A DNA stretch of 64,000 nt from Pseudofrankia sp. DC12 (lineage in GTDB: Bacteria > Actinomycetota > Actinomycetes > Frankiales > Frankiaceae), in the NCBI RefSeq assembly GCF_000966285.1, contig NZ_KQ031391.1, positions 5,008,383 through 5,072,382 of the forward strand. Direction: 5' to 3'. Under the pieces are notes generated by a model. That model was not told the DNA's origin, made no database searches, and worked only from the letters and a program-made list of their open reading frames with translations. The translations under genes were made by a program, and so were the position numbers. This document shows positions 31,387-58,625 of the stretch, in pieces; the stretch's first letter is position 1, and every line of letters begins with the position of its first letter.

Positions 31387-31401
31387 ACTATACCGTCTCG
31401 T
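31387..31401. promoter_or_regulatory. Palindromic operator (TetR-type), site A
   Basis: ACTATACCGTCTCGT matches the shared palindrome ACGAGACnGTCTCGT with two mismatches in the left arm. It lies between the diverging CoxG-like and benzoylformate-decarboxylase-like genes and sits inside the predicted minus-strand promoter. Confidence 0.6.
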
Positions 31402-31414
31402 AACCGTAAATCAA
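31387..31414 (-). promoter_or_regulatory. Predicted promoter for the CoxG-ThDP-ALDH operon
   Basis: On the minus strand TTGATT (31409-31414) and TATAGT (31387-31392) are 16 bases apart, close to the -35/-10 consensus, in an AT-rich patch 60 bases before the CoxG-like start. Operator site A covers the -10 box and part of the spacer, so a bound repressor would block it. Confidence 0.5.
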
Positions 31415-31532
31415 ATCTTGCGCACAATAACCGCGATGGCAAGCTCGCGGAACTTCAGTGAATCAAGCGTGACGCATTTCGCGTCGATTTTCGCGCGCTC
31501 GCGGGAAAAGATTTACACCCATCGGAGGTCAG

Positions 31533-33230
31533 GTGACCACAACGTCTCCCGACGTGAGTTCGGTACTCGCCGGGACCTTGCGCGCCCACGGCGTCACCGC
31601 GGTGTTCGGCAATCCCGGGACGACCGAGCTCCCACTGGTCGACGCGATCGGCCGCACCCCAGGGATGTCCTACTACCTCTGCCTCCAGGAGAACGTCGCG
31701 ACGGGCATGGCCGCCGGCTACGCGATCGCGACCGGGAAAGCCGGGGTCAGCCTGCTGCACGTCGCCCCGGGGCTGGCCTGCGGACTGGGCAACATCTACA
31801 ATGCCTTCCGCAACGGCACGCCCCTGGTCGTGCTGTCCGGCCAGCAGGACCGCCGCCACACGCTGCTCAACCCGGTGCTCTACGGCGACCTGGTCAGTCT
31901 CATGCGGCCGGTGACCAAGTGGGCCTGGGAGGCCCAGACCGCGGAGGAGGTGCCGGTCGCGGTCGGCCGGGCCATCCGCGACGCGCTGTCCCCAGCGCAG
32001 GCGCCGACGTTCGTCAGCATCCCCCTCGACCTGCAGACGATGCCTCTGCCGGACTCGGGTGACCTGCCGGACGCCGGCCCGGTCCCCGCCCTGGGCACCG
32101 CGCCGGCGGCGATGGTCGAGGCCGCGGTCGCGATGCTGCACGCGGCGGAGAGCCCGGCGATCATCGCCGGCGACATCATCGGAGCTGGCCGGGCGGTCCC
32201 CGAGCTGCGCCGGCTCGCGCACGAACTGGCGGCGGCCGTCTACTGGGAGCCGGTCTCGACGTACGCGAACTATCCCACCTCGGACCCGATGTCCCAGGGG
32301 ATCATGTTCCCGAACGCGAAGAACTTCGAAGAGATCTTCGCCAAGCACGACGTCGTGCTGGCCTGCGGGCTCGGCCTGCGCGCGCCCGCCCTGTTCGGCG
32401 GCACCAACTGGTCCGCGCCCGGGCACCGGGTCATCGCCCTGACGGACCACAGCTCGCAGGGGCCGGGCATCGACGTCGACGTCACGCTTCTCGGCGACGC
32501 CGCGGCGACGCTGACGGCACTCGCCGAGGCCTCGGCGGCGGCGATGAAGCCCGAGCTCGCGGAGCAGGTGGCGCAGCGGCACGCCCAGCTCGTCGAGAAG
32601 CACGCCGCCGCACGGGCGCGGGTCGTCGCCTCGGCCGCGAAGCGGGCGCTCGACGTCCCGATCAACACCGCATCCCTCATGACGGCGCTCTACGAGAAGC
32701 TGCCGGAGAACGCCACCGTCGTCGACGAGTCGCTGTCGAACTCGGCCTGGGTGCAGCTGGCCGGCCAGTTCACCGACGAGCTCGGCTACCTCGGCGGGAC
32801 CAAGGGCGGCGGCATCGGCTTCGGCCTGCCGGAGGCGGTCGGCGCGGCCATCGGCCGCCCGGACCGCAGCGTCGTGGCCGTCATCGGTGACGGGTCGTCC
32901 CTGCACTCGATCCAGGCGCTGTGGACGGCCGCACGCTACAACGTCCCGATTGTCGTCTGCGTGCTCAACAACGCCAGCTACCGGATTCTCAAGGGCGGTC
33001 TGATGTCCTTGACCGGCATCAGCCTCGAAGAGGTCGAGAAGGTACCGGGGCTCAACATCGTCTCTCCCGAAGTCGACTTCGTCGGCCTCGGCCGCTCCCT
33101 CGGAGTCGACGGCGTACGGGTCGACACCGTCGAGACCGCGGTCGCCGCGGTCCTGGAAGCGGTTGCGTCCCGCGAGCCGCGCCTCGTCGACATCCAGGTC
33201 GACCGCGGCACCCGCAAGATCTTCAGCTAG
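31533..33230 (+). CDS. ThDP-dependent decarboxylase/lyase (benzoylformate-decarboxylase-like)
   Basis: A 565-residue ThDP enzyme closest by eye to benzoylformate decarboxylase: GNPGTTELPLVDA, the activating Glu in CLQENVATGMAAGYA, the active-site His segment LLHVAPGLACGLGN, GQQDRRH, and the PP motif GDGSSLHS ending in LNNASY. Benzoylformate decarboxylase releases CO2 and an aldehyde; related folds include 2-hydroxyacyl-CoA lyase and oxalyl-CoA decarboxylase. GTG start with GGAGG upstream. It is the first gene of a five-gene run with a CitE-like lyase, enoyl-CoA hydratase, CoA-transferase and acyl-CoA synthetase, and diverges from another ThDP gene cluster across operator site A. Confidence 0.88.
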   Translation: MTTTSPDVSSVLAGTLRAHGVTAVFGNPGTTELPLVDAIGRTPGMSYYLCLQENVATGMAAGYAIATGKAGVSLLHVAPGLACGLGNIYNAFRNGTPLVVLSGQQDRRHTLLNPVLYGDLVSLMRPVTKWAWEAQTAEEVPVAVGRAIRDALSPAQAPTFVSIPLDLQTMPLPDSGDLPDAGPVPALGTAPAAMVEAAVAMLHAAESPAIIAGDIIGAGRAVPELRRLAHELAAAVYWEPVSTYANYPTSDPMSQGIMFPNAKNFEEIFAKHDVVLACGLGLRAPALFGGTNWSAPGHRVIALTDHSSQGPGIDVDVTLLGDAAATLTALAEASAAAMKPELAEQVAQRHAQLVEKHAAARARVVASAAKRALDVPINTASLMTALYEKLPENATVVDESLSNSAWVQLAGQFTDELGYLGGTKGGGIGFGLPEAVGAAIGRPDRSVVAVIGDGSSLHSIQALWTAARYNVPIVVCVLNNASYRILKGGLMSLTGISLEEVEKVPGLNIVSPEVDFVGLGRSLGVDGVRVDTVETAVAAVLEAVASREPRLVDIQVDRGTRKIFS

Positions 33231-33246
33231 CCCCGGAGGTGTGCAC

Positions 33247-34191
33247 ATGACTCTGCTGCGCTCGATGCTCATCGTCCCGGCCCTGCAGCCCAAGCTGCTC
33301 GACAAGGCCGCCCGGTCGGCGGCCGACGGCCTGATGATCGAACTTGAGGACGGCGTCCACGCGTCGCGTAAGGCCGAGGCCCGCGCGGCGGTCGCGAAGT
33401 TCATCAGGTCGGCCGACTTCGGCACCAAGGAAGTCACCGTCCGGATCAACAGCGTCTTCGGCAACGAGGGCCCGGAGGACCTCCACGCCCTCGTCGACGC
33501 GGGCGTCCCGTCGGTGATGCTCGCCGAGGTCCGCGGTCCGAAGGACCTGGAGGTCGCGGGCGACCTGCTCGCCCGGGCCGAGCACGCCGCCGGGCGGGAG
33601 ATCGGCTCCGTCGGCCTGTGGTCGATGGTCGAGACCGCCGCCGCGGTGCAGAACATCGACGAGATCAGCCGGATGCCGCGGCTGCGCGGCCTCGCCTTCG
33701 GCGGCGGCGACCTGTCCAGCGAGCTGCGGGTCCGCCGGATCGGTATCGGCGGCGACCGGGTCATCTGGGACTACCCGTTCGAGCACCTGTACTCCAAGGA
33801 GCGGCTGATCATCGCGGCTCGTGCCGCCGGCCTGAAGGCCATCGACACCGGGTGGGCGAACATGTACGACGCGGAGGGGACGGCGTTCTGCGCGCGGGCT
33901 TCGGCTCAGCTTGGCTTCGACGGGTCGTTCGTCATCTCCCCGCGGCAGCTCCCGCCGATCCACGGCGAGTTCACCCCGTCCGAGCGTGACATCGAGTGGG
34001 CGCAGAAGGTCGTCGCCGCCGCGGAGGAGGCCGAGGCCGTCGGCGAGACGGTCCGCGTCGTGGAGGGCCAGATGACCGACGGCCCGTTCGTCCGCAGCGC
34101 GTTCCAGATCCTCCAGCGCGCGAACGAGGCCGTCGAGCGGGCCGCCGAGGTCGAGCGGCTCCAGCAGAAGGCGCTGGAGCCGGCGAAGTGA
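33247..34191 (+). CDS. HpcH/HpaI aldolase / CitE-like lyase
   Basis: A 314-residue TIM-barrel lyase of the HpcH/HpaI-CitE family. It starts MTLLRSMLIVPALQPKLL, has MIELEDGVHASRKAEAR (acidic metal-binding segment), an Arg-containing strand EVTVRINS and GGGDLSSELRVRR, where an Asp coordinates Mg. Relatives cleave citryl-CoA, malyl-CoA or hydroxy-oxo acids in a retro-aldol manner. GGAGG lies 7 bases before the ATG, 16 bases after the ThDP gene. A long helical C-terminus rich in Glu and Ala follows the barrel. It may split a 3-hydroxyacyl-CoA formed by the hydratase downstream. Confidence 0.87.
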   Translation: MTLLRSMLIVPALQPKLLDKAARSAADGLMIELEDGVHASRKAEARAAVAKFIRSADFGTKEVTVRINSVFGNEGPEDLHALVDAGVPSVMLAEVRGPKDLEVAGDLLARAEHAAGREIGSVGLWSMVETAAAVQNIDEISRMPRLRGLAFGGGDLSSELRVRRIGIGGDRVIWDYPFEHLYSKERLIIAARAAGLKAIDTGWANMYDAEGTAFCARASAQLGFDGSFVISPRQLPPIHGEFTPSERDIEWAQKVVAAAEEAEAVGETVRVVEGQMTDGPFVRSAFQILQRANEAVERAAEVERLQQKALEPAK

Positions 34192-34230
34192 GCCCCGCCC
34201 AGGCCCAGCTGCCGGAGGAGGTGCGCCCAG

Positions 34231-35073
34231 GTGGCATCTGAAGCGGCCACGCCGGCCGACGAGCCCCCGGTCCTCGTCGAGGACCGGGGCCCAGTCCGGT
34301 GGATCTGGCTGAACCGCCCCCGGGTCCACAACGCTCAGAACCTCGACATGCTCGAGGCGCTGTGCGCCGCGCTCGACGACCTGGAGCGGTCCGAGTCGGT
34401 GCGGGTGCTGGTCCTGGGCGGGAAGGGGAAGTCGTTCAGCGCCGGCCATGACCTCCGGCAGTCGGCCGACAACCCCCGCTACCGGTCCAACCAGTCGACG
34501 GCGGAACGCCGGTGGCGCCAGGAATGGCAGATGTTCGTGCAGCCAGTGGAAAGAGTCAGGCGGCTGCCGATCCCGACGATCTGCCGGGCGCAGGGCCACT
34601 GCCTGGCCGCTGGCATGATGTTCGTCGAGGCCTGTGACTTCGTGGTCGCGACCCCGGACTCGGTCTTCGGCTCCCCGATTCTGGGGCCGCTCGAGATCAA
34701 CGACGCAGAGGTGCCGACGTTCGTCCGCAACGTCGGGGTACGACGGGCCAAGTCGCTGCTGTGGCTCAATGAACGACTCGGCGCCCAGGAGGCACTTGAG
34801 GCCGGCCTGGTCAACTGGGTCGTCGAGCACGACCAGCTCGACAAGCACGTCGAAGCCACCGCGGACCGCCTGCTGCAGGTCTCCCGGGAGACCCTCGAAC
34901 TGTCCAAGCTGAGCTTCCAGTTCCTGGCTGCCCGGCAGGGGTGGGACGACTTCGACCGGTACCACTTCATGACCCACCAGCTCAGCCATCACACCAGCCC
35001 CGCCCAGGCCCTCTACGACCAACGCCTGAACAACCCGTCAGGCCGCGGCGGGAGCAGCGGCAAGGACGCCTGA
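34231..35073 (+). CDS. Enoyl-CoA hydratase/isomerase family protein
   Basis: A 280-residue crotonase-fold protein. The oxyanion-hole segments are GKSFSAGHDLRQ and CRAQGHCLAAGMMFVEACDF. The usual catalytic Glu pair is not clearly kept: the second segment reads GPLEINDAEVPTF, so another crotonase reaction is possible. The GTG start has GGAGG upstream and the C-terminal trimer helix reads FMTHQLSHHTSPAQAL. It resembles the protein at 52663 (both have SAGHD and a long insertion with Trp/Arg after it). It is in the same operon as the CitE-like lyase. Confidence 0.86.
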   Translation: MASEAATPADEPPVLVEDRGPVRWIWLNRPRVHNAQNLDMLEALCAALDDLERSESVRVLVLGGKGKSFSAGHDLRQSADNPRYRSNQSTAERRWRQEWQMFVQPVERVRRLPIPTICRAQGHCLAAGMMFVEACDFVVATPDSVFGSPILGPLEINDAEVPTFVRNVGVRRAKSLLWLNERLGAQEALEAGLVNWVVEHDQLDKHVEATADRLLQVSRETLELSKLSFQFLAARQGWDDFDRYHFMTHQLSHHTSPAQALYDQRLNNPSGRGGSSGKDA

Positions 35074-35224
35074 TGGGCGTCGGCGCCGCCCGGCGGCGCC
35101 GACGCCCTGGCACCCTCGACATGATCCAGGTCCCTGGAGGTGGAACCCTGACGATGCGCGAGCCTCGTCCGTCATCCGATCAAGGCGGCGCTCGGTGCTC
35201 GCCGCGGGCCGGGGAGCGTGACCG

Positions 35225-36412
35225 TTGACCCCCGAGGCGCGGTGGCCGCGCTCCCCGGCGAACAGCGGCCGCCCCCTCGATGGGGTGAAGGTCCTCGACC
35301 TGTCCCGTGTGCTGGCCGGGCCCTACTGCACCATGGTCCTCGCCGACCTGGGCGCCGACGTCGTCAAGGTCGAGAGCCCGGCCGGTGACGAGACCCGCCG
35401 CTGGGGGCCGCCCTTCTTCCAGGGCACCGCCGCTTACTACTTCGGGCCCAACCGCAACAAGTGGGGGATCGTCCTCGACCTGGCCAGCCCGACCGGCCGG
35501 GAACGGCTCGACACGCTGCTGGCTGAGGCCGACGTCGTCGTCCACAACTTCACCGGCGAGATCGCGACCCGGCTGGGCGTGGACTGGGAGCGTGTGGCCA
35601 GCATCAACCCACGGATCGTCCACCTGACGCTTTCCGGGTTCGGGCCCGAGGAGCCGGAACGGCGGGGCTACGACCTCATCATCCAGGCCCTCGGCGGGCT
35701 CATGGCCGTCACCGGCGAGCCGGCTGGCGGCCCTGTGAAGGTCGGCGTTCCGATCGCGGACCTGTCCGCCGGGCTCTACGCGGTCAGCGCGGTCACGTCG
35801 GCGTTGTACGAGCGGGACCGGACCGGCACCGGGACACCGGTGCACGTCTCGCTCTACGAGTCGGTTCTGTCGCTGTTGTCGAACCAGGCAGCCGGCTGGT
35901 TCCTCGCCGGGGCCCCGGCGGGGCGCCTCGGCACGGAGCACCCGCATGTCGTCCCCTACGGCGTCTACCCAACGGCGACCAGCCCCCTGGTGATCGCGGC
36001 CGGCACCGACGCCCAGTTCCGCGAGCTGTGCATGGTCCTTGGGCGTCCCGACCTCTCCACGGACCCCAGGTTCCACTCGAACGGCGCGAGGGTGGCCTAC
36101 CGTGACGCCCTGCGCAAGGAGCTCGAGCAGGCGCTCGCCGCCGACAGCGCCGACGCTTGGGCCGACTCGCTCGAAGCGCGGGGTGTCCCGAACGGCGTCG
36201 TGCGCGAAGTGCCCGAGGCCGTCACCGCGCCTGAGGCCAGGTCGGTGCGGACCGTCACACATCCGAGCCTCGGCGTCATCACGCATGCGATGACGCCGAT
36301 CCGGGTCCACGACCAGATTCTTGAGCCCTACCTGGCGCCACCGACCCTCGGCGAGCACGACGGCGTCGTCTTCCCGACGGAGCTGGCCCAGGAAACCGAA
36401 CAGGAGCGGTGA
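35225..36412 (+). CDS. CaiB/BaiF family (class III) CoA-transferase
   Basis: A 395-residue class III CoA-transferase. It starts LDGVKVLDLSRVLAGPYCTM, keeps the catalytic Asp179 in VPIADLSAGLY and the ERDRTGTGTPVHVSLYES turn. It would activate a carboxylic acid to its CoA ester, or take CoA from formyl- or succinyl-CoA. The best start is TTG at 35225 with GGGGAG 9 bases upstream. A 150-base gap before it holds nothing I can identify. Its stop lies 1 base before the acyl-CoA synthetase start. Confidence 0.88.
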   Translation: MTPEARWPRSPANSGRPLDGVKVLDLSRVLAGPYCTMVLADLGADVVKVESPAGDETRRWGPPFFQGTAAYYFGPNRNKWGIVLDLASPTGRERLDTLLAEADVVVHNFTGEIATRLGVDWERVASINPRIVHLTLSGFGPEEPERRGYDLIIQALGGLMAVTGEPAGGPVKVGVPIADLSAGLYAVSAVTSALYERDRTGTGTPVHVSLYESVLSLLSNQAAGWFLAGAPAGRLGTEHPHVVPYGVYPTATSPLVIAAGTDAQFRELCMVLGRPDLSTDPRFHSNGARVAYRDALRKELEQALAADSADAWADSLEARGVPNGVVREVPEAVTAPEARSVRTVTHPSLGVITHAMTPIRVHDQILEPYLAPPTLGEHDGVVFPTELAQETEQER

Positions 36413-36413
36413 C

Positions 36414-38528
36414 GTGACTGGCCATACCGGCAGGCAGCGAGCGTTGGAGACGCTGCTCACGCCACGCTCGGTGGCGATCATCGGGGCCGGCGAGGTCCCG
36501 ACGACGTTCAACGGCGCCCCGATCCACAACCTACGCAGCTTCGGCTACCGCGGCGAGATCTACGCGGTGAACCCGGGCAGGTCCCAGGTCCAGGGAATCA
36601 CCTGCCACGCCTCCGTTCTCGACATTCCAGGAGAGGTCGACACGGCGGTCGTGACGGTTCCCGCGCGAGTCGCCCTGCCCGTGCTGCGGGAATGTGCCGC
36701 CAAGGGCGTCGGGTCGGTCACGCTGGTCTCCTCGGGCTTCGGGGAGGGGGCGGCCGGTGACGAGGGCCAGGCCCGCGCGGCCGAGCTCGAGGAGCTCATC
36801 CACAGCAGCGGCCTGCGAGTCCTCGGGCCGAACACCGCGGGCCTGGTCAACCTGTTCGACGACTACGTCCCGCGTGCCGCGCACAACCACCACGGTCCCG
36901 ACCAGGTGCGCGTCGGCCGGGTGGCACTGGTCAGCCAGAGCGGCGCCTGCGGGAACACCCTGTTCAACCGGGCCCAGGCCAACGGCGTCGGCGTCAGCAT
37001 CTCGGTCGCGACCGGAGACCAGATCGACCTCGACGTGTGGGACCTCGTCGAGCACTTCCTCGCCGACCCCCGGATCAGCGTCATCATGGCCGTGCTCGAG
37101 TCGTTCGGCGATGTGGCGAAGGCGCGCGCCACCGCCAGCGCGGCCCTGGCCGTGGGCAAGCCGATCGTGCTGCTCAAGGTCGGCCAGTCCTCGGTCGGCG
37201 GCGCGGTCGTGCGCGCGCATTCGGGCTCGATCGCGGGGAACGCCGCGGTGCAGGCGGCCGTCCTGCGCGATCATGGAATCATCGCCGTCCGCGACCTCGA
37301 CGAGCTCTGGGAGGTCGCCCGGCTGGTGGAGTCCTGGGGCCCGCCGCCAGCGCAGCCGATCCGGCTGGGCGTTGTCTCCGTCTCAGGCGGCGAGGCCGCG
37401 CTCATCGCCGACCAGTGCGCGGAGCACGGGATCGCGCTGCCGCCGGCGACCGAGGAGTTCGCCGCCTTCGTCGACTCCACGTTCGAGTACGCCTCCGGCG
37501 CCAACCCGTTCGACCCGACCGGCGAGGTCGTCAGCCGCCCGCACCGGCTGCGGGAGGGCATCGAGGCGTTCGTCCGCACCAACGACTACAGCCATATGCT
37601 CGTCGCGTCGCCGGTCTTCGGCGGCGACCTCGCGCAGCGCTACTACGCCGAGCTGCCCCGGGCCCTCGAGGCCGTCGAGGCGAAGGCCGCCCTGTCCGCG
37701 TGGCCGGCGGGCGAGTTCACCGGCACCCAGGTCTCGCTGCTGGCCTCGACCGGGCGGCCAGTCTTCCCGAACTCGGCCCGGGCCGTGCGCGCGATGTCCC
37801 TCTACCAGGACTATGGGCTGCGCGGCCCGGACCTGCTGGCCACGCTCGCCCGGCGGCGGGCGCCCGCGGCGGAGGCGGTGAGCGCCGCGTTCACGCCGTT
37901 GTCGTACGCCGCGGCCCGGGCGCTGCTCGGCAAGCTCGGCCTGCCGTTCGTCGAGGCCCGCACGTGTGTCTCGGCCGAGGCCGCGGCCGAGGCCTCGGCC
38001 GCGCTCGGCGGGCAGATCGTCCTCAAGGCGAACGTGCCCAGCGCCGTGCACAAGGCCGACCACGGCCTGCTCGAGTTCGTCCATGGCGGCAGCGGCCCGG
38101 AAAGCGTCCGGGCCGCCTACGACCGCATCCTCGCCGCTGGCGAGGAGTGGGACGTGTCGTCGGTCGTCGTCGAGGGATTCGCTCCCGGGCAGGTGCAGCT
38201 GATCGTCGGCGCTCACCGGGATCCCGAGTTCGGTCCCGTGGTCCTGTTCGGCTCCGGCGGCGGCCCGGTGGAGTTCCTTGACGACACCCGCCTGGCGCTG
38301 GCCGACCTGGTGACGGGCACCGCGGCGCGGGAGCTGGTCACAGGTACCCGGATCGGCCGCTACCTGGACGCCAAGGCGCCCGCCCTCGTCGACGAGCTGG
38401 CCGCGGCGCTCGCCTCCGTCGCCGAGTTCATGGTGTCCCACCCGGGCTGCCAGTCGATCGACGTCAACCCCTGCATCGTCGACATGATGACGAAAGCCTG
38501 GGCCTGCGCCGACGCCCGCGTCGTCTAG
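36414..38528 (+). CDS. ADP-forming acyl-CoA synthetase (acetate-CoA ligase family, alpha-beta fusion)
   Basis: A 704-residue fused ADP-forming acyl-CoA synthetase: CoA-binding Rossmann domain (PRSVAIIGAGEVPTTFNG), succinyl-CoA-ligase-like domains with the phosphorylated His269 in RAHSGSIAGNAAV, and a C-terminal ATP-grasp domain (KADHGLLEFVHGG, VVVEGFAPG). No acetyltransferase domain is attached, unlike Pat/Acs regulators. It turns an acid, CoA and ATP into acyl-CoA, or makes ATP in reverse. GTG at 36414 follows the CoA-transferase stop by 1 base. It may activate the acid made by the aldehyde dehydrogenase. Confidence 0.88.
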   Translation: MTGHTGRQRALETLLTPRSVAIIGAGEVPTTFNGAPIHNLRSFGYRGEIYAVNPGRSQVQGITCHASVLDIPGEVDTAVVTVPARVALPVLRECAAKGVGSVTLVSSGFGEGAAGDEGQARAAELEELIHSSGLRVLGPNTAGLVNLFDDYVPRAAHNHHGPDQVRVGRVALVSQSGACGNTLFNRAQANGVGVSISVATGDQIDLDVWDLVEHFLADPRISVIMAVLESFGDVAKARATASAALAVGKPIVLLKVGQSSVGGAVVRAHSGSIAGNAAVQAAVLRDHGIIAVRDLDELWEVARLVESWGPPPAQPIRLGVVSVSGGEAALIADQCAEHGIALPPATEEFAAFVDSTFEYASGANPFDPTGEVVSRPHRLREGIEAFVRTNDYSHMLVASPVFGGDLAQRYYAELPRALEAVEAKAALSAWPAGEFTGTQVSLLASTGRPVFPNSARAVRAMSLYQDYGLRGPDLLATLARRRAPAAEAVSAAFTPLSYAAARALLGKLGLPFVEARTCVSAEAAAEASAALGGQIVLKANVPSAVHKADHGLLEFVHGGSGPESVRAAYDRILAAGEEWDVSSVVVEGFAPGQVQLIVGAHRDPEFGPVVLFGSGGGPVEFLDDTRLALADLVTGTAARELVTGTRIGRYLDAKAPALVDELAAALASVAEFMVSHPGCQSIDVNPCIVDMMTKAWACADARVV

Positions 38529-38693
38529 CGGTGCCGTCCAGCTGACCACATTGGGCAGCTGCACACCGCGGGCAGCTGGCAATTCCCGCTCAAGTGATTG
38601 CCGAACGCGTGCGGCGTGCCTTTCTCGTGCACGTTTGCTTGTGGGCGGCCGAATCGCGAAGTTACAGTGACGACGGACCGAGAGGAGACCTCG

Positions 38694-40405: not shown

Positions 40406-40435
40406 CGCGCGACCATTCAGGAGGTAGGGACACCC

Positions 40436-41704: not shown

Positions 41705-41726
41705 GTCATGGAGACGGAGGGTGATC

Positions 41727-49287: not shown

Positions 49288-49316
49288 ATCTCACACGTAG
49301 TTACAATGCGTGTCAA
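49288..49316 (-). promoter_or_regulatory. Predicted sigma-70-type promoter for the Liv-type binding protein
   Basis: On the minus strand TTGACA (49311-49316, perfect -35) and TGAGAT (49288-49293) are 17 bases apart, in a locally AT-rich stretch; the start codon is at 49233, leaving a leader of about 48 bases. Confidence 0.6.
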
Positions 49317-49372
49317 TGAACGCTCCCGCGCTGGCGCGAGGTGCTGCCTGGCCGGTATGGAGAGACGAGTCC

Positions 49373-50557: not shown

Positions 50558-50718
50558 GATTATGCCTAACTGCGGTGTCCGTGATTCGGGTGGCCGGCAG
50601 GTGAGAGTCCATGCCGATTTGGAGAGGCCAAGACTGACGTCAGGACGGCCGGTCGACGGGTTGGCGCGGTGGCCGCCTCAGGCGTAGGGCCAGCGAGGGG
50701 AAATGCGCTCCCAGCTGG

Positions 50719-51486
50719 TCAAGGCGCGAACCGCAGTGCGCCGTCGAGGCGGATGTTCTCGCCGTTGAGATAGGGGTTGGTCGCGATCGCCTCGACGAGC
50801 AGGGCGTACTCCTCAGGCCGGCCGAACCGGTGCGGGAAGACGATGCCCTCGACGAGCTTCTCCCGGAGCTCCTCGCGCAGCGTGTACATGATCGGGGTGC
50901 CCATGGTGCCAGGGGCGATCGCGCACACCCGGACACCAATCGGGGCGAGGTCGCGGGCCATGGGCAGCGTCATCCCGAGAATGGCCGCCTTCGCTGAAGC
51001 GTAGGCGACCTGGCCGGTGCGGCCTTCCATCCCGGCGATCGAGGCGGTGTTGACGACGACGCCGCGCTGGCCGAACTCGTCAGGCTGGTTGCCCGCCATC
51101 GCCGCCGCGGTCAGCCGCGTCATGTTGAACGTCGTCAGCACGTTCATCTCGAGGGTCCGGATGAACGCGGTCTTGTCGTGCGGGGTCCCGTCGCGGGCGA
51201 CCAGACGCCCGCCGCCGGCGCCACCCCCCGCGACGTTGACGAGTAGCGAGAGCGGGCCGACGGCACGGGCGGCGTCGATCGCCGCGGTGACGTCGTCGTC
51301 GGCCAGGACGTCGCCGCTGACGGCGCTCGCGCTGTCGCCGAGTTCCTTTGCGAGCTCAGCGGCGCGGTCGGCGTCCCGGTCGAAGATGACGGCGTGCATG
51401 CCGATCTCGACGAGTCTGTGTACCGTCGCCGATCCGAGCCCGCCAGCGCCACCCGTCACGATCGCCGAGCGTCCCTGCAGGTTCAC
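50719..51486 (-). CDS. SDR, 3-hydroxyacyl-CoA dehydrogenase type 2-like
   Basis: A 255-residue SDR: AIVTGGAGGLGSATVHRL, VNVAGG, NTASIAG and the catalytic VAYASAKAAILGM. The sequence GQRGVVVNTASIAGMEGRTGQ and the MARDLAPIGVRVCAIAPGTMGTP tail are typical of type-2 (HSD10-like) 3-hydroxyacyl-CoA dehydrogenases, which oxidise short or branched 3-hydroxyacyl-CoA with NAD. GTG at 51486 has GGAG 6 bases before it. The P450 gene follows 161 bases later on the same strand. Confidence 0.88.
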   Translation of the reverse strand: MNLQGRSAIVTGGAGGLGSATVHRLVEIGMHAVIFDRDADRAAELAKELGDSASAVSGDVLADDDVTAAIDAARAVGPLSLLVNVAGGGAGGGRLVARDGTPHDKTAFIRTLEMNVLTTFNMTRLTAAAMAGNQPDEFGQRGVVVNTASIAGMEGRTGQVAYASAKAAILGMTLPMARDLAPIGVRVCAIAPGTMGTPIMYTLREELREKLVEGIVFPHRFGRPEEYALLVEAIATNPYLNGENIRLDGALRFAP

Positions 51487-51791
51487 CCATTGCTCCGTTT
51501 CTTCCGCAGGCCTGCGCCTGGAGACTACTGCCAGCAGATTTCCTTGCCGGCAGGGACTCGCTTTCCCATCGTGTCCGGGCCAGCCTGTCCTGGGGAATGC
51601 TTCGCCCCGTCCCTGGCAAGGATCAGCCCGGGAGCTGCTGGGATTCCGGGACCGGAGACAGGCGGCTCGCCGGCCAGCAACGAGATCAGGGTGGGTTGCG
51701 GCCGCCACACTCAGGTCTTAGGGCTGAGTCTTGCCGGTCGCCGCCTTCGACGTATGGAGAAGCTGATTGATACCGATGGGGCCGAAAATGC
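51487..51791. other. Noncoding region between two SDR genes
   Basis: 305 bases without a supported gene. An imperfect inverted repeat (TCCTTGCC near 51541, GGCAAGGA near 51614) could end transcription of the upstream minus-strand gene. I see no clear promoter. Confidence 0.35.
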
Positions 51792-52538
51792 TCACTGCTT
51801 TGTCCTCGCCGTCACGACTACTGCAGGAAGGGCCACGGCGCCGCCGGCCTCCAGGAGCCCGCGTACGATCCTCAGCAGGTCGTCGACGTTGACGAAGTCG
51901 CCGCGGAACAGGTTCCGGTCCGCCCACGTCTTGGCGAACGTGGCGGCCATGCTCATGTCCCATTCGGCGGTGAAGTCCGTGTGCGAGCCGCCGCCGCCGC
52001 CGCTGCAGACGCCCATCGCGATCCGGGTGAACCCGACGGTGGGGTGCTCGCCGCGCCAGGCGTCGGTCAGCTTGTCGAGCGCCGCCTTGCTGACGGCGTA
52101 GGCGCCGAGGCCAGGCCACGGCGGTGTGTAGGAGGCGCTGATGGACGACAGGTAGACGGCGTGGCCCGCAGAGGCTTTCAGATGAGGCAAGGCCGCCGCG
52201 GTGACGACCGACGCGCCGATCACGTTCGTGTCGAAGGTGCGCCGCCAGGTGTCCATGCTGAGGTCCTCGATGTGCCCCATCGGGCCGATGCCGGACGCAT
52301 AGACCAGGGCGTCGATGCCGCCGAGGCGCTTCGCGGCCTCCTCAATGGCGTCCCGGCAGGAGGATTCCCGTGTGACGTCGCAGGTGATGGCCAGGGTGCC
52401 GGGCCCAGCGTCCTTCGCCGCCTCCACCAGTCGGTCGTGCCGTCGCGCGAGCAGCGCGACCTGCGCCCCGTGCCGCGCGAGATCGACCCCGATGGAGCGG
52501 CCTAGTCCGCTGGACGCGCCGACGACAACCGCGCGCAT
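51792..52538 (-). CDS. Short-chain dehydrogenase/reductase (SDR)
   Basis: A 248-residue SDR: AVVVGASSGLGRSIGVDLA, LVYASG in place of the usual NNAG, and GLGAYAVSKAALDKLTDAW with Tyr and Lys; the Ser lies in LSSISAS. The Ala-Ser-Gly in the NNAG place and a Gly-rich loop before HTDF (CSGGGGGSHTDF) are unusual. GAGGTGGGG precedes the ATG at 52538. It is in line with the enoyl-CoA hydratase gene upstream (gap 124 bases). Confidence 0.86.
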   Translation of the reverse strand: MRAVVVGASSGLGRSIGVDLARHGAQVALLARRHDRLVEAAKDAGPGTLAITCDVTRESSCRDAIEEAAKRLGGIDALVYASGIGPMGHIEDLSMDTWRRTFDTNVIGASVVTAAALPHLKASAGHAVYLSSISASYTPPWPGLGAYAVSKAALDKLTDAWRGEHPTVGFTRIAMGVCSGGGGGSHTDFTAEWDMSMAATFAKTWADRNLFRGDFVNVDDLLRIVRGLLEAGGAVALPAVVVTARTKQ

Positions 52539-52640
52539 CGACCCCACCTCGTCTCTGTGTGTATTGGGCGCTTCCGGGCGACGCTGTCCGGGGACGCTGC
52601 TTGTCCCGCTGTCTCGGCCGTCGTGACGGGCCAAGCAGGT

Positions 52641-52657
52641 GGGCGGGATGGCCGCCC
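52641..52657 (-). terminator. Small hairpin after the enoyl-CoA hydratase gene
   Basis: GGGCGG-N5-CCGCCC just past the 3' end of the hydratase gene. Short, so only a weak case. Confidence 0.35.
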
Positions 52658-52662
52658 GCCGG

Positions 52663-53472
52663 TCAGCTCCCCTTGACCTGGTCCTTCATCGCGGTCAGCC
52701 CGGCGAGCACCGACGACTTCCCGCCGTTGACGACCGCGGCCCGGGCGTGGCCGAGCTGGTGCATGTCGAACACCGCGTCGACCGCGGTGGTGAAGCCCTG
52801 TACGTCGAGGGTGTGGTTCACCGCCCGCTTCGCCATCCGCAGCGCGAAGCTGTCCTGCCGGGCGATCCGCCGGGCCAGCGCCAGCGTCGCGTCGGTGAGC
52901 TGGTCCGCGGGGACGACCCGGTTGACCATGCCGAGCAGCCGCGCTTCGTCGGCGCTGAGCGCCTCACCGGTGAACAACAGCTCCTTGGCCTTGCGGGGGC
53001 CGAACTCCCAGGTGTGGCCGTGGAACTCGACCCCGGCGATCCCCATGTAGAGCACGGGGTCGGAGAACTGCGCGTCGTCCGCGGCGATGATCAGATCGCA
53101 GGGCCAGCACAGCATGAGCCCGGCGGCGATGCATTTGCCCTGCACGGCGGCGATCGACGGCTTGGGCACCTCCCGCCACGTCTTGGCGTAGTGCAGGAAA
53201 CGGCGGGTCTCCCAGTCGTAGTGCCGGTCGGCCTGCCACGCGGGCCGCGGCGCGGCCTGCTCGGTGGGCGTCATGTCGTGGCCGGCGGAGAAGTTCTTAC
53301 CCGTCGTCCGGAACACGATCACTTTGACCCGGCTGTCCTCGTCCGCCGCCTTCCAGGCCGCGTCGAGCTCCTCGAGGACCTTCGGGCTCTGGGCGTTGGC
53401 CTTCTCCGGCCGGTCCAGGATGATGGTCCCGATGGCGTCCTCGACCTCGAGGCGGACGTGCTCGAACTGCAT
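52663..53472 (-). CDS. Enoyl-CoA hydratase/isomerase family protein
   Basis: A 269-residue crotonase-fold protein. IGTIILDRPEKANAQSPKV opens the fold; KNFSAGHDM and QGKCIAAGLMLCWPCDL form the oxyanion hole; the segment with MGIAGVEFHGHTWEFGPRKAKEL follows. It parallels the hydratase at 34231. ATG at 53472 has GGAGG just upstream; the open frame continues back to 53709 over a promoter and operator and is not coding. It starts a minus-strand operon with an SDR, under a predicted promoter with the palindromic operator. Confidence 0.87.
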   Translation of the reverse strand: MQFEHVRLEVEDAIGTIILDRPEKANAQSPKVLEELDAAWKAADEDSRVKVIVFRTTGKNFSAGHDMTPTEQAAPRPAWQADRHYDWETRRFLHYAKTWREVPKPSIAAVQGKCIAAGLMLCWPCDLIIAADDAQFSDPVLYMGIAGVEFHGHTWEFGPRKAKELLFTGEALSADEARLLGMVNRVVPADQLTDATLALARRIARQDSFALRMAKRAVNHTLDVQGFTTAVDAVFDMHQLGHARAAVVNGGKSSVLAGLTAMKDQVKGS

Positions 53473-53666
53473 GCGTTCCTCCGCTGAGCTGTGCCGCCGC
53501 CGGCGCGCGGGCATGGGCTGGGGATCGGGCGGCGGCCGTAGCGATTCGCCCCGACCCGCTGCCTCGGCTGCAACAGGTAGGGGCTGGGTCGATGACGCGT
53601 CGCGGTGCCGTCCAGCGGCCGACCGAGTGGATCCGAGGAACCCGGCTGGCCGGTTCGCGAGCCTTG

Positions 53667-53695
53667 ACTGTAGAGCTGTAGATGCTGAAAGTAAA
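53667..53695 (-). promoter_or_regulatory. Predicted promoter for the enoyl-CoA hydratase operon
   Basis: On the minus strand TTTACT (53690-53695) and TACAGT (53667-53672) are exactly 17 bases apart. The boxes and flanks (TTTACTTT, then GCTCTACAGTCAAGG) are the same as in the promoter at 56383-56411. Operator site B abuts the -35 box. Confidence 0.65.
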
Positions 53696-53709
53696 CGAGA
53701 CGGTCTCAT
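53695..53709. promoter_or_regulatory. Palindromic operator (TetR-type), site B
   Basis: ACGAGACGGTCTCAT, one mismatch to the palindrome ACGAGACnGTCTCGT. It overlaps the stop codon of the thioesterase gene and adjoins the -35 box of the hydratase promoter. Confidence 0.7.
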
Positions 53710-54674
53710 AACATTTCGCGGATTGTGGGGCCGTCCAGGTGCTCACTGCCTCCGCCTCGCTGGGCCGGCGGCGAGGCCTCCACAGTGCCGCCCGGGACCA
53801 GCCGGGTCACCGTGGCGACCGCGTACGGCCTGCCGTCGGGCCCAGCCGCCGCCGTTCGGCACACGGTCGCCGTCCGGCCGCGGTGCACCACCTCGGCAGT
53901 GACGACCAGTGGCGTGTCGACCCGGCCGGGGCGCAGGAAGTTCATCCGTACCGACCGGGTCTGCTCCCCGCCGGGGCGCACGAGCGCGCTCGCGGCGAGC
54001 TCGGACACACAGAACAGCACCCCGCCATGGATCGTCCCGCTGGGGTTGCCCAGCTCCGACGGGTCGTTGACGACGACCCGGGCACGGAGGTCGCCGGGCT
54101 CGACCCAGGCGTTGAGGATCTCCGCCAGGTCCCGGCCCGTCGCCGGCTCCATATCGGGCTCGGGCACCCCGTTCGGCGGAGCCGGCGGCCGGGGAGCGCC
54201 GGGCCGCGAAACGGGGAGCGGGGCAAACTGGAAGCGGCCGATCCCGGCCGCCACCGTCGTCTCGGCGCCGTTGACGAGGTCGCAGCGCGCGAACCCACCC
54301 GTGGCGTCGAGGCGCAGGATCTGGCCGACCGCGACGAGGGTGCCGTAGTACAGCCTCTCGGGAGCGAGCACGTCGAGGGAGATCTCGGCGGTGACCGTCC
54401 GGTGCCCCGGCGGCCGGACGCGCAGGGTGCTCACGCCGAGGACGTTGTCGAGCGCGACGCCGAACGCGCCGGCCGACGACTGGCCTGCGGGCCAACAACT
54501 CCATGGCCCCGGGTGGATCGTCGCGCGCACCGTGTCGCCGACGAAGGCCGGCAGCTCGACGCGGAAGCGGCGCGACAGGCTGCTGGGGCGGCGAGGCATG
54601 GGCACCCCGCCAGGCCCGCCGGCCTGGGCGTCCCGCACGGGCTGCTCGCCGACCGGGCCCGCGGTGCTGGTCAC
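53706..54674 (-). CDS. Double-hotdog acyl-CoA thioesterase-like protein
   Basis: A 322-residue protein with two hotdog-fold units. The C-terminal one has NPSGTIHGGVLFCVSELAASALV, the PaaI/4HBT core with its His-Gly-Gly helix start; the N-terminal one has SSAGAFGVALDNVLGVST and VTAEISLDVLAPE. Such proteins hydrolyse acyl-CoA or aryl-CoA thioesters and free CoA. The GTG start overlaps the stop of the dehydrogenase gene upstream (GTGA). Its own stop lies in operator site B, so this operon ends where the next one begins. Confidence 0.83.
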   Translation of the reverse strand: MTSTAGPVGEQPVRDAQAGGPGGVPMPRRPSSLSRRFRVELPAFVGDTVRATIHPGPWSCWPAGQSSAGAFGVALDNVLGVSTLRVRPPGHRTVTAEISLDVLAPERLYYGTLVAVGQILRLDATGGFARCDLVNGAETTVAAGIGRFQFAPLPVSRPGAPRPPAPPNGVPEPDMEPATGRDLAEILNAWVEPGDLRARVVVNDPSELGNPSGTIHGGVLFCVSELAASALVRPGGEQTRSVRMNFLRPGRVDTPLVVTAEVVHRGRTATVCRTAAAGPDGRPYAVATVTRLVPGGTVEASPPAQRGGGSEHLDGPTIREML

Positions 54675-56161
54675 AGGACTGCCGGGAAGTCGAGGTCGAC
54701 CCGGGAAGGCTGGTCGGGCCAGCGGGACGTGACCACCTTCGTACGGGTGTAGAAGCGGATCCCGTCCGGGCCGTAGATCGACGCGTCCCCGAAGATCGAG
54801 TTCTTCCAGCCGCCGAACGAGTACCAGGCCACCGGCACCGGGATCGGCACATTGATCCCGACCATGCCGACCTCGATCTGCCGCTCGAACCGGCGGGCCG
54901 CGCCCCCGTCGCGGGTGAACAGCGCGACGCCGTTGCCATAGGGGTTTGCGTTGACCAGTCTGACCGCCTCGTCAAAGGTGTCCACCCGCACGACGGACAG
55001 CACCGGTCCGAAGATCTCGTCGGTGTAGACCCGCATCTCGGGGGAGACCTGGTCGACCAGCGAGCAGCCGAGGAAGAACCCCGCCCCCGTCGGGGCGGCG
55101 GCGCCGTCGACGACGACCCGTGCGCCCTCGCCGGCCGCGCCCTGGACGTAGGAGCGGACCCGGTCGCGGTGCTCGGCGGTGATGAGCGGGCCCATCATCG
55201 ACGCCGGGTCGTCGCCGGGGCCGATGACGACGCTCGGGATCCTGGCCGCGATCGCCTCGACGAGGCGATCGGCCACACCTCCGACCGCGACGACCACCGA
55301 GATCGCCATGCACCGTTCGCCTGCTGAGCCGTACGCGGCGGACACGGCGGCGTCCGCCGCCGCGTCGAGGTCGGCGTCGGGGAGCACGACCAGGTGGTTC
55401 TTCGCGCCGCCGAGAGCCTGCACCCGCTTGCCGGCCTTCGTGCCGGTCTCGTAGACGTGGCGGGCCACCGGGGTGCTGCCGACGAACGACACGGCGTCGA
55501 CATCGGGGTGGGCCAGCAGCGCGTCGACGGCCTCGGCGTCGCCCTGCAGCACCGTGAACACCCCGTCGGGGAACCCGGCCTTGCTCACCAGCTCGGCGAG
55601 CAGCAGCGACGCCGACGGGTCCTTCTCCGACGGCTTGAGCACGAAGGCGTTCCCGCAGGCCAGAGCGTTCGCCAGCATCCACAGCGGCACCATGACCGGA
55701 AAGTTGAACGGGGTGACCCCGGCGACGACGCCGACGGGGTGCAGAGCGGTGTGCACGTCGACGCCGCGGGAGACCTCGGCGCTGCGCTCGCCCTTGAGCA
55801 GGTGCGGGATGCCGCAGGCGAACTCGACGCACTCGATGCCGCGGGCGACCTCGCCGAGGGCATCGGACCGCACCTTGCCGTGCTCGGAGGTGACGAGGGC
55901 GGCCAGGTCGTCGCGGTGGGCGTCGAGGAGCTGCCGCAGCTGGAAGAGCAGGGTGGCGCGCTGGCTCAGCGACGACGCGCCCCAGGTGTCCGCCGCGGCG
56001 ACGGCGGCCTTTACGGCCTCGTCGACCTGCGCGCGTGACGCCAGCAGCACCTCAGCGACCTGGGCGCCCCGAGCCGGGTCGTAGACAGTGCCGACGCGGC
56101 CGGCGGGCTCGCTGGCCGGCTGCCCCTGGATCCAGTGTCCGATGGTCCTCAAGGCGGTCAT
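54671..56161 (-). CDS. mmsA: CoA-acylating methylmalonate-semialdehyde dehydrogenase-like (MmsA)
   Basis: A 496-residue aldehyde dehydrogenase of the MmsA group: IGHWIQGQPASEPAGR at the start, VTPFNFPVMVPLWM, the Rossmann turn FVGSTPVARHVYETG, GGAKNH in place of the ELGG base motif, and nucleophile Cys284 in GERCMAISV. Loss of the general-base Glu is typical of MmsA, which transfers the acyl group to CoA rather than water. It converts methylmalonate or malonate semialdehyde to propionyl- or acetyl-CoA in valine, inositol or beta-alanine breakdown. Here it may take a branched semialdehyde. A thioesterase gene is coupled downstream. Confidence 0.9.
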   Translation of the reverse strand: MTALRTIGHWIQGQPASEPAGRVGTVYDPARGAQVAEVLLASRAQVDEAVKAAVAAADTWGASSLSQRATLLFQLRQLLDAHRDDLAALVTSEHGKVRSDALGEVARGIECVEFACGIPHLLKGERSAEVSRGVDVHTALHPVGVVAGVTPFNFPVMVPLWMLANALACGNAFVLKPSEKDPSASLLLAELVSKAGFPDGVFTVLQGDAEAVDALLAHPDVDAVSFVGSTPVARHVYETGTKAGKRVQALGGAKNHLVVLPDADLDAAADAAVSAAYGSAGERCMAISVVVAVGGVADRLVEAIAARIPSVVIGPGDDPASMMGPLITAEHRDRVRSYVQGAAGEGARVVVDGAAAPTGAGFFLGCSLVDQVSPEMRVYTDEIFGPVLSVVRVDTFDEAVRLVNANPYGNGVALFTRDGGAARRFERQIEVGMVGINVPIPVPVAWYSFGGWKNSIFGDASIYGPDGIRFYTRTKVVTSRWPDQPSRVDLDFPAVL

Positions 56162-56309
56162 ACTCCTGAAGTTGGGCCGACCGGCGCGAGCCAGTGCGGG
56201 GGTGAGGCCCGTCGCGGCGGTCTGGATCGTCTGGCCTCACCGCCCGCCTGACGGTCGCGGCGCGCGGGGCCGACGTTCGCCGGTCACGGTCACGCCCCTC
56301 AGCTGGCGC

Positions 56310-56361
56310 GGGCGTGCATCGAGCGGGCGTGCATCGAGCGGGCGTGCATCGAGCGGGCGTG
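56310..56361. repeat. 15-base tandem repeat, 3.4 copies
   Basis: GGGCGTGCATCGAGC occurs three times without change (56310-56324, 56325-56339, 56340-56354), followed by a partial unit GGGCGTG. It lies directly before operator site C, about 150 bases upstream of mmsA. Each unit contains TGCATCGA; it may space or multiply a protein site, or be a slippage product. Confidence 0.85.
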
Positions 56362-56368
56362 AATTGAG

Positions 56369-56383
56369 ACGATACTGTCTCGT
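56369..56383. promoter_or_regulatory. Palindromic operator (TetR-type), site C
   Basis: ACGATACTGTCTCGT, one mismatch to ACGAGACnGTCTCGT. It touches the -35 box of the SDR promoter, the same arrangement as site B, and could also act on mmsA. Confidence 0.7.
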
Positions 56384-56411
56384 TTACTTTGGGCCTGGCC
56401 GGCTCTACAGT
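56383..56411 (+). promoter_or_regulatory. Predicted promoter for the SDR gene
   Basis: TTTACT (56383-56388) and TACAGT (56406-56411), spacing 17. Boxes and flanking GCTCTACAGTCAAGG equal those of the promoter at 53667-53695, pointing to the same sigma factor and control. Confidence 0.65.
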
Positions 56412-56591
56412 CAAGGCCCGGCCGGCGCTGGCCGGTTCATGGACGGTGGCCAGGCCAGGGAGTCAACGGTGCCGGGAATGGGGCCGGCGAGCGTCGGCGT
56501 GCCGGCCCGCGAACGGGCGATCCGCCCGCCGGGAGGTCGGTTCGCGGGCGTGGCCCCTCGTCTCCGGCCACGTCATGGGAGGTGCGGCAGG

Positions 56592-57386
56592 GTGGACCTG
56601 GGGCTGGCCGGCGCGACGGCCGTGGTGCAGGGTGGGAGCCAGGGCATGGGCCGTGCGGCCGCGGAGTGCTTCGCCGCCGAGGGCGCGAGGATCGGCGTCC
56701 TCGCCCGCGACCGCGCGGAGCTCGACAAGACGGTTGCCCGCCTGCTCGAGTTGGGCGCGGCGGACGCCGTCGCGCTGCCCGCCGACGTCACCCGGCTCGA
56801 GGAGGTTGAGGCAGCCTTCAGGACGGTCCGTGACCGGTGGGGCGAGCTCAACATCCTCGTCAACGCCGCCGGCCCGAGCGGCGGCGGCGGGTTCGAGAGC
56901 CTTTCCGACGACGACTGGGTCCGGGTTCTCGACTCCGGCGCGCTGGGTATGGTCCGCTGCGTGCGCGCCGCGCTGCCGCTGCTGCGGGCCGCCGCATGGG
57001 GGCGCATCGTCAACGTCGCGGCGCAGTCCACGAAGCGCCAGTCGCCGTCGCTCGTCGCCTATACGGCCGCGAAGTCCGTGGTCACCAGCGTGACGAAGAA
57101 CCTCGCACAGTCGCTGGCCAAGGACGAGATCCTCGTCAACACGGTGTCGCCGGGAGCGGTGCTGTCCGGCACGCTGGCCGCCTGGGCACGGCGCAACGGC
57201 CTCGACGCCGACGACCCGTACGCGGTGATGGCCGGCATCACTGAGATCATCGGTCACCCCGCATTCCTGCCGCGCGCGGGCACGCCGCCCGAGGTGGGCC
57301 GAGTGATCGCCTTCGTCGCGTCCAAGGCCAATGGCTACATGACCGGCGCGAACATCAACGTCGACGGCGGCTCTGACTTCTGCTGA
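56592..57386 (+). CDS. Short-chain dehydrogenase/reductase (SDR)
   Basis: A 264-residue SDR: TAVVQGGSQGMGRAAAECF (Gln-Gly-Gly in the nucleotide loop), VNAAGPSG, and AYTAAKSVVTSVTK with Tyr and Lys; NVAAQST holds the Ser region. The C-terminal GYMTGANINVDGGSDFC is the standard SDR end. GTG at 56592 has GGGAGG upstream. It is the only plus-strand gene between 43.3 and 58.6 kb and is driven by the promoter with operator C. It converges on the SDR gene at 57462. Confidence 0.86.
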   Translation: MDLGLAGATAVVQGGSQGMGRAAAECFAAEGARIGVLARDRAELDKTVARLLELGAADAVALPADVTRLEEVEAAFRTVRDRWGELNILVNAAGPSGGGGFESLSDDDWVRVLDSGALGMVRCVRAALPLLRAAAWGRIVNVAAQSTKRQSPSLVAYTAAKSVVTSVTKNLAQSLAKDEILVNTVSPGAVLSGTLAAWARRNGLDADDPYAVMAGITEIIGHPAFLPRAGTPPEVGRVIAFVASKANGYMTGANINVDGGSDFC

Positions 57387-57461
57387 CCCGCGCGCATGGC
57401 CGTGGCCGCCGGCGCTGGCTGCCGCACGGCCCCCGCTCCGAGGATGGCGAGGCCCTCGCTG

Positions 57462-58232
57462 TCACTGGGCGAAGGAGATGCCGCCGTTGAGCGGGCAGGT
57501 CTGGCCCGTGATCCACGACGCCTGCTCGCTGGCGAGGAACACGGCCAGGGCCGCGGCGTCTTCGGGCAGTCCAGGGCGGCGCACGACGTAGCGCGCGAGC
57601 ATGCTCTTCGCCGTCGGGTTGTCCGGGTCGGCCCAGATGGTGCCGGTCTCCCGGGTGCGCATCGTGCCGAGCGAGATGTTGTTGACCGTGATCCCGTGTC
57701 GGCCGTTCTCGATCGCGAGCGCCCGGGTCAGCCCGGCGGCGCCCGCCTTCGCGGTGCAGTAGGCCGCCATGTTCGCCTCGCCGGTGCGGCCGGCGTCCGA
57801 GATGATGGTGACGATCCGGCCCCAGCCTTTTGCGATCATGCTGGGGAGGGTGGCCCGAGCGCAGTACAGGACGCCGTAGAGGTTGACCCGCAGAAACGGC
57901 TCCCACTGATCGGGCGTTGTGTCGACGAACTTCGCCAGGCCCGTCCAGCCGTCGGCGCCGGCGTTGCCCGCGTTGTTCACGAGGATGTCGACACCGCCCA
58001 GTTCGTCGACGGCCGCCGCCACGGCCGCGTAGTCGGTCACGTCGAATGGGCAGGCGAGCGCCGCCGCGCCCGTGGCGGCCAGCTCGTCGGCGACTTCCTG
58101 GGCACGGTCGGTGAACAGGTCGTTGACCACGACCTGCGCGCCGGCGGCGGCGAAGCCGTGGGCGATGCCGCGGCCGACACCCTGCCCGGCGCCGGTGATG
58201 AGCACTCGGCGTCCCTTGAGATCGAACTCCAT
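57462..58232 (-). CDS. Short-chain dehydrogenase/reductase (SDR)
   Basis: A 256-residue SDR: VLITGAGQGVGRGIAHGFA, NNAGNAG, and catalytic AAYCTAKAGAAGLTR (Tyr, Lys) with TIISDAG for the Ser segment. LGTMRTRETGTIWADP and ITGQTCPLNGG close the fold. ATG at 58232 is taken; GTG at 58238, two codons earlier, has GGAG at better spacing and is possible. Operator site D lies 74 bases upstream, between this gene and the TetR gene, so both are probably under that regulator. Confidence 0.86.
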   Translation of the reverse strand: MEFDLKGRRVLITGAGQGVGRGIAHGFAAAGAQVVVNDLFTDRAQEVADELAATGAAALACPFDVTDYAAVAAAVDELGGVDILVNNAGNAGADGWTGLAKFVDTTPDQWEPFLRVNLYGVLYCARATLPSMIAKGWGRIVTIISDAGRTGEANMAAYCTAKAGAAGLTRALAIENGRHGITVNNISLGTMRTRETGTIWADPDNPTAKSMLARYVVRRPGLPEDAAALAVFLASEQASWITGQTCPLNGGISFAQ

Positions 58233-58625
58233 CGCCACTGTGTCTCCATTCCGTCCTGCGCGGCGCGGCCTGCGTCTGGTTTCTCGGACCAGTCTGCCGA
58301 AAGTTATGAAACTGTCTCGTATCATTCGACGGGTGGGGAAAATGCGGAACGGCCTCGTGCCGGGGCGGTTGCGACCAGGGCCGCCGGTCTGTGGGGTCGT
58401 GCATATGGCACCCGGCCACGAGGTCGCGACCGGACCGTGATGCCGGGATCTCGGCTATGTCCCGCCCAGGCACCTGAGAGGAACCGCCTACAATGAGCCC
58501 GCTTCGTCTCAGCAGAGCAGATCGGCGGCCGCACGTGAACTCGCGGCGCCCACAGGCCGGGCGTCCGGGGTTCCCGTGGCCAGGGTTCCCGCGCGTCATG
58601 GCCATCACGACAGGCGCGTGAGCTG
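58233..58625. other. Intergenic region between diverging SDR and TetR genes
   Basis: About 390 bases with operator site D at 58306-58320. No other gene is convincing; short frames have no ribosome site. The TetR start is a TTG with a weak ribosome site, so the true start could be different. Confidence 0.45.
58306..58320. promoter_or_regulatory. Palindromic operator (TetR-type), site D
   Basis: ATGAAACTGTCTCGT, two mismatches to ACGAGACnGTCTCGT. Placed between a divergent SDR gene and a TetR regulator gene, the classic layout for autoregulation. Confidence 0.65.

Follow-up and report, generated by a model that had tools for sequence, protein, structure and literature searches.

A TetR-type regulator and palindromic candidate operators in a catabolic gene region of Pseudofrankia sp. 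DC12

Organization of the locus

The window analyzed here is a stretch of 64,000 nucleotides from Pseudofrankia sp. DC12, a member of the Frankiaceae (RefSeq assembly GCF_000966285.1, contig NZ_KQ031391.1, positions 5,008,383 to 5,072,382, forward strand). A preliminary description had noted four copies of a 15-base palindrome (hereafter the 15-mer) next to catabolic operons and had proposed that they are operators of the TetR-type regulator encoded at 58626-59183 (hereafter TetR 58626). All four lie where that description put them, at 31387 (2 mismatches), 53695 (1), 56369 (1) and 58306 (2). We describe these sites, the conservation of two of them, their co-occurrence with the TetR gene and the promoter-like arrangement to which two are joined. 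In our reading, which is drawn from sequence comparison, TetR 58626 quite probably controls a regulon in which 53695, 56369 and 58306 serve as operators and 31387 is a possible further one. The regulator, the three sites and the surrounding genes are as follows; matrix scores are explained below.

58626..59183, plus strand: TetR regulator of 185 amino acids with a TTG start, the proposed repressor (TetR_N and TetR_C_11, PF16859)
58306..58320, plus strand: predicted operator ATGAAACTGTCTCGT, upstream of both the SDR start (by 73 bp) and the TetR start (by 305 bp); matrix score 31.9
57462..58232, minus strand: SDR oxidoreductase (Pfam), first gene downstream of operator 58306; start codon at 58232
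56592..57386, plus strand: SDR oxidoreductase (Pfam, on 56457-57386) with a GTG start at 56592, downstream of the 56383 promoter
56383..56411, plus strand: predicted promoter TTTACT-N17-TACAGT, contiguous with operator 56369
56369..56383, plus strand: predicted operator ACGATACTGTCTCGT, between mmsA (minus) and the SDR gene (plus); matrix score 46.2
54671..56161, minus strand: CoA-acylating methylmalonate-semialdehyde dehydrogenase of the mmsA type (TIGR01722, 666.9 bits, cut-off 448.5), divergent from operator 56369
53706..54674, minus strand: hotdog thioesterase (Pfam 4HBT), downstream of mmsA
53695..53709, minus strand: predicted operator ATGAGACCGTCTCGT (as read on the minus strand), upstream of the hydratase operon; matrix score 46.0
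53667..53695, minus strand: predicted promoter TTTACT-N17-TACAGT, contiguous with operator 53695
52663..53472, minus strand: enoyl-CoA hydratase (NF006140, 380.8 bits, cut-off 280), first gene of the hydratase operon; start at 53472
49373..52634, minus strand: two SDR enzymes and a cytochrome P450 (Pfam), downstream of the hydratase

Sites 53695 and 58306 fall within over-long open reading frame (ORF) calls, the likely start codons of which are at 53472 and 58232; with the latter start, site 58306 is intergenic. Site 53695 shares 4 bases with the end of the thioesterase ORF 53706-54674, the stop codon among them.

Distribution of the motif in the genome

Allowing up to 3 mismatches to the 15-mer, the window holds 10 matches where 5.5 are expected, and since 10 was reached by 7 of 100 shuffles, the loose motif is not significant by itself. 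At up to 2 mismatches, 54 places were found in the 6.88-Mb genome (26 for the reversed pattern used as control), of which 4 are in the window, compared with about 0.5 expected from the window's share of the genome by our own arithmetic. Both single-mismatch places of the genome fall inside the window. Sharper forms are more selective. For ACNGTCTCGTWW the genome has six matches, of which four belong to the window and two (1405499 and 6795715) are mismatched at four of five positions of the left half-site; the only four matches to a 17-base form, AYNANACNGTCTCGTWW, are the window sites. Both forms were derived from these four sites themselves.

A weight matrix was built from six sites of two related genomes, with none from the window. 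Its four best-scoring places in the window are 56369 (46.2), 53695 (46.0), 58306 (31.9) and 31387 (16.1), the next separate place scoring 7.8. For comparison, the best score per simulated window ranged from 5.3 to 15.7 (n = 20), and the best score in 59,197 bases elsewhere in the genome was 8.3. Resemblance to the 15-mer had led to the training sites in the first place, so this test is not fully independent. Among the papers listed in a text-only literature search for the motif strings, which logos would escape, none concerns a TetR operator as judged by title and abstract.

Conservation in the Frankia family

Comparisons were made with a family set of 35 genomes and a class set of 393 genomes, in which the own genome is G000 and Frankia nepalensis CN7 is G003. 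Matches to TetR 58626 at an E-value of 1e-35 or better occur in four of the 35 family genomes and in four of the 393 class genomes, the own genome counted in each case (in the class-wide search, up to 8 candidates were scored per genome). The relatives are 74% identical in G003, 55 and 57% in G005 (two copies) and 49 and 51% in G026 (two copies). With zero mismatches, the motif GANACNGTCTCGTTT is present in G000, G003 and G005, which are exactly the family genomes where identity to TetR 58626 reaches 55% or more, and in none of the 32 others. By our own arithmetic, a random draw of 3 of 35 genomes would coincide in this way once in 6545 draws.

In F. nepalensis four sites were found (C15:33882, C384:43602, C15:4356 and C15:4625). 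The first is the counterpart of 56369 and precedes a relative (73% identity) of the SDR gene at 56592; the second, at C384:43602-43620, is the counterpart of 53695 and precedes the orthologous hydratase operon, the hydratase/SDR/SDR/P450 gene order being kept on that contig with 71-83% identity. The other two are copies of the operator in the same direction, 269 bp apart, upstream of an alpha/beta hydrolase gene, and a fragment of a group II intron reverse transcriptase lies about 3 kb beyond this pair.

Conservation of 53695 and 56369 in front of orthologous genes, together with their co-occurrence with the TetR, contradicts for these two sites the notion that GC-rich DNA merely matched the palindrome by chance. 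Although the 3-mismatch count within the shuffle range and the 54 places at 2 mismatches would fit such a notion, we regard it as highly improbable. The same conservation backs the earlier view that the palindromes are operator-like elements in front of catabolic genes.

On G005 contig C266, site 14863 is 44 bp before a TetR start, and a second site follows 71 bp after the opposite end of the same TetR ORF. All six sites of G026 are altered, reading ACGANACNGT(T/G)TCGTTTA, and all are on contig C26, which carries both G026 TetR genes; one of them precedes a gene with 57% identity to the SDR gene at 51792 in the window. The sequence AATGATACTGAGCGGTTTCTTA before the second G005 TetR gene (C266:93242) resembles the reverse strand of the own site 58306 (AATGATACGAGACAGTTTCATA) and is perhaps a diverged operator.

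The candidate regulator

TetR 58626 matches TetR_N with 53 bits (cut-off 24) and PF16859 with 82.9 bits (cut-off 32). Its TTG start is backed by the F. nepalensis relative MSPRPRTPEDIV, which is 74% identical. Scores fall far below the cut-offs for the profiles of KstR (NF033703, 24.7 against 280 bits), MftR (TIGR03968, 30.8 against 224.9) and BetI (TIGR03384, 31.6 against 201.3). Only one other gene of the genome, at C1:999412, is above the PF16859 cut-off. No 17-base form is found near that gene, as the only four copies in the genome are those of the window, and a listing of palindromes around it gave nothing that we recognized.

Sites of this type might instead be served by the adjacent TetR gene at 59215-59991 (minus strand) or by another TetR of the genome. 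The product of 59215 has relatives in all three genomes with the exact motif, its gene adjoins that of TetR 58626 in a neighbourhood kept in G003 (65-66% identity), and the site-bearing contig of G026 encodes a 41% identical relative (C26:43468) as well as a further TetR, with TetR_N only, about 0.5 kb from site C26:107454. On the other hand, relatives of 59215 (E 1e-30 or better) occur in 15 of the 35 family genomes, 12 of which lack the exact motif; the C266 sites of G005 are beside a TetR of the 58626 type, whereas the three G005 relatives of 59215 are on other contigs. The 59215 product has a partial TetR_N match and no PF16859 match at E 0.001, and in other genomes the motif is accompanied by PF16859 proteins. 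A different regulator is unlikely in our judgment. The proposal that TetR 58626 is the best regulator for these sites gains from its co-occurrence with the motif, from the two conserved sites and from the nearby PF16859 TetR genes elsewhere. Support for its assignment is good at 53695 and 56369, fair at 58306 and weakest at 31387.

A number of observations weigh against this assignment or limit its reach. The exact motif GANACNGTCTCGTTT covers only two of the four own sites (53695 and 56369). No counterpart of 58306 was found in G003, where the region upstream of the TetR gene has no match above 9 except the 33882 site beyond the SDR gene. The earlier remark on an autoregulated operator at 58306 fits the SDR gene, which starts 73 bp away, better than the TetR gene, for which the distance is 305 bp. 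Other TetR genes are also found near G026 sites, so that the regulator there is less certain. At C223 (L094:6001), G005 has a site of the G026 type with boxes TTTACC-N17-TAGCGT, while no TetR of the G026 type was found in it at the cut-off. A good palindrome, ACGAAACGGTTTCGTTTCA, is present in G022 (C383:3590-3608), a genome in which no relative of TetR 58626 was found at the cut-off.

The C223 site and the G022 palindrome were both matched by a looser 19-base pattern with 2 mismatches, which matches 15 of the 35 family genomes and with which co-occurrence with the TetR is less clean; a further match is in G004 (C1:6485918), another genome with no relative of TetR 58626 at the cut-off. In 14 of these 15 genomes, one match is ACGAGACGGGTTCGTTTCC or a one-base variant of it, occurring once per genome; its first 15 bases match the 15-mer with 2 mismatches but form a weaker palindrome. 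The own copy is at C1:6813586-6813604, with others in 13 further family genomes, and the stretch CGTTAACGAGACGAGACGGGTTCGTTTCC is conserved in four of the five loci read. Neither a tRNA nor a tmRNA was found at five of these loci, nor an Rfam match at two. The stretch is present in genomes in which TetR 58626 was not found, and we set it aside as probably another conserved element, though it may be an operator of a different protein.

Promoter arrangement and mode of action

For the comparison of flanks, the 15-mer was oriented with its GTCTCGT-like half rightward in 17 sites (four own, four of G003, three of G005 and six of G026). A TTTA box stands at a constant offset from the 15-mer in 13 of the 17, and a TAnnnT box follows 17 bases on in 8 of the 17, both boxes having been picked by eye. 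In the own genome, the two boxes occur together only at 53695 and 56369, and the operator-joined promoter arrangement is also found at three of the four F. nepalensis sites. Immediately before operator 56369, a 15-base unit, GCGGGCGTGCATCGA, is repeated four times in tandem (56308-56367), with the last copy altered.

In the proposed mechanism, a dimer of TetR 58626 would bind the imperfect palindrome, approximately ATGAGAC-Y-GTCTCGTTTAC, and thereby control the hydratase/SDR/SDR/P450 operon from 53695, the SDR gene facing mmsA from 56369 and the SDR gene divergent from the tetR gene from 58306. At 53695 and 56369 the operator abuts the -35 box, so that TetR bound there would stand in the way of RNA polymerase. 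Its release would probably be brought about by a compound of the pathway, perhaps an acyl-CoA.

A point against repression is that the operator centre is about 43 bp before the predicted transcription start, just upstream of a weak -35 box (TTTACT), a placement that would also suit an activator; the fixed spacing from operator to -35 and -10 boxes at 53695, 56369 and several sites of the relatives is in line with such a role. Site 31387, however, would cover a predicted -10 box, and site 14863 of G005 is 44 bp upstream of the start codon of a TetR gene. Most TetR-family proteins are repressors, which also counts against activation, and we consider it improbable that TetR 58626 acts in this way. 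Overall, the system is best read as a repressor, a real but ordinary kind of bacterial TetR switch over catabolic operons.

Site 31387 and the CoxG/ThDP genes

The remaining site is between two divergent gene groups, one of them headed by CoxG and the other by an enzyme dependent on thiamine diphosphate (ThDP):

27446..31327, minus strand: CoxG, ThDP enzyme and aldehyde dehydrogenase (Pfam)
31387..31401, plus strand: candidate operator ACTATACCGTCTCGT, between CoxG (minus) and the ThDP enzyme (plus), the weakest of the four; matrix score 16.1
31387..31414, minus strand: predicted promoter TTGATT-N16-TATAGT towards CoxG, read by eye; site 31387 covers its -10 box and part of the spacer
31533..38528, plus strand: ThDP enzyme, HpcH/HpaI lyase, hydratase, CoA transferase III and acyl-CoA ligase-like protein (Pfam)

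The claim that the regulator reaches over 27 kb to include the ThDP group hinges on this site. In this species, 31387 may extend the control by TetR 58626 to the CoxG/ThDP genes. It shares with just three other places in 6.88 Mb a match to the 17-base form, though that form had been widened to include it; it is placed between divergent operons, with arms GTTACTATAC and GTCTCGTAAC; and as ACNGTCTCGTWW has no more than two matches beyond the window, about 0.02 would be expected within the window by our own arithmetic.

Alternatively, only 53695, 56369 and 58306 are operators, and 31387 is a chance resemblance within the CoxG/ThDP promoter region. At the cut-off used, a single further family genome, G003, has the ThDP enzyme, and although G003 keeps the cluster, the site is not conserved there: 10 of its 15 bases are kept, compared with 123 of 205 for the entire intergenic region. 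At the CoxG promoter, G003 retains the TTGATT -35 box and a similar -10 box (GATAGT), but not the operator half GTCTCGT. Moreover, the matrix score of 16.1 is close to background, the best of the 20 simulated windows having reached 15.7. These points count against 31387 as an operator, and we give a chance resemblance only slightly less than an even chance of being correct.

The palindrome elsewhere in the class

The 17-base form was matched in 16 of the 393 class genomes, and all 14 places outside G000, G003 and G005 were retrieved (L080-L093). A PF16859 TetR gene is located within about 2.1 kb at nine of the 14, in nine genomes (L080-L083, L085-L088 and L092). As these genomes have between 1 and 14 PF16859 genes each (E 1e-6), chance proximity is unlikely; in G268, the TetR near the motif is the only PF16859 gene found. 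At L084, L089, L090, L091 and L093, tblastn gave no match to the two window TetRs, a test that also missed three of the nine PF16859 loci, and the single ORF at each of L089, L090 and L091 that was compared with Pfam is not a TetR.

The nine loci share with the window the Pfam class and the core ACGA(G/T/A)ACNGTCTCGT. They differ in that their TetRs are only 27-33% identical to TetR 58626 (in the six with a tblastn match), in that the right flank begins with AT in eight of the nine where the window has TTTAC, and, in the two loci scanned, in having transporter genes (MFS, MMPL) as neighbours. The core of the 15-mer is thus not peculiar to TetR 58626, since the perfect palindrome also occurs near other PF16859 TetR genes in other genomes.

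As a speculative proposal, which we hold to be possible rather than probable, an actinobacterial subset of PF16859 proteins may keep the core operator ACGAGACNGTCTCGT despite about 27% identity and a switch from transporter to catabolic targets, while the operator of the Frankia family may travel together with its promoter as one fixed unit, drifting (GTCTCGT to GTTTCGT) together with the recognition helix of the TetR (YRHWG to YRRWP). The drift is not clean: the C223 site of G005 is of the G026 type, yet both G005 TetRs carry YRHWG.

Relation to known systems and significance

KstR is a TetR repressor of a dispersed steroid-catabolism regulon with a short palindromic operator and has a general likeness to the system described here, from which it differs by the low score of TetR 58626 on its profile given above. 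The closest functional relative that we noticed, in literature on TetR and Frankia operators, PF16859, Streptomyces MFS and acyl-CoA that was available in part, is EdcR. Its host, Caenibius tardaugens, is presumably not an actinobacterium.

According to the part of the paper available to us, EdcR is a TetR repressor of the estradiol-degradation cluster with the proposed operator TnnCnnTACnAnTnGTAnnGnnA (PMC8700777). In that part, it resembles the regulator of the window in having TetR_C_11 (PF16859), a catabolic cluster as target and proposed palindromic operators over promoter boxes that are conserved in one relative; it differs in its operator, which is unlike that of the window on reading, and in its pathway (PMC8700777).

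For a large uncharacterized catabolic region in a Frankia-type actinobacterium, the analysis thus names concrete candidates for the regulator, its operator and the promoter, and the idea of an operator code among PF16859 TetR proteins becomes open to testing. A route to ligand discovery is offered as well, since whichever compound frees the TetR from DNA ought to indicate what substrate the pathway takes.

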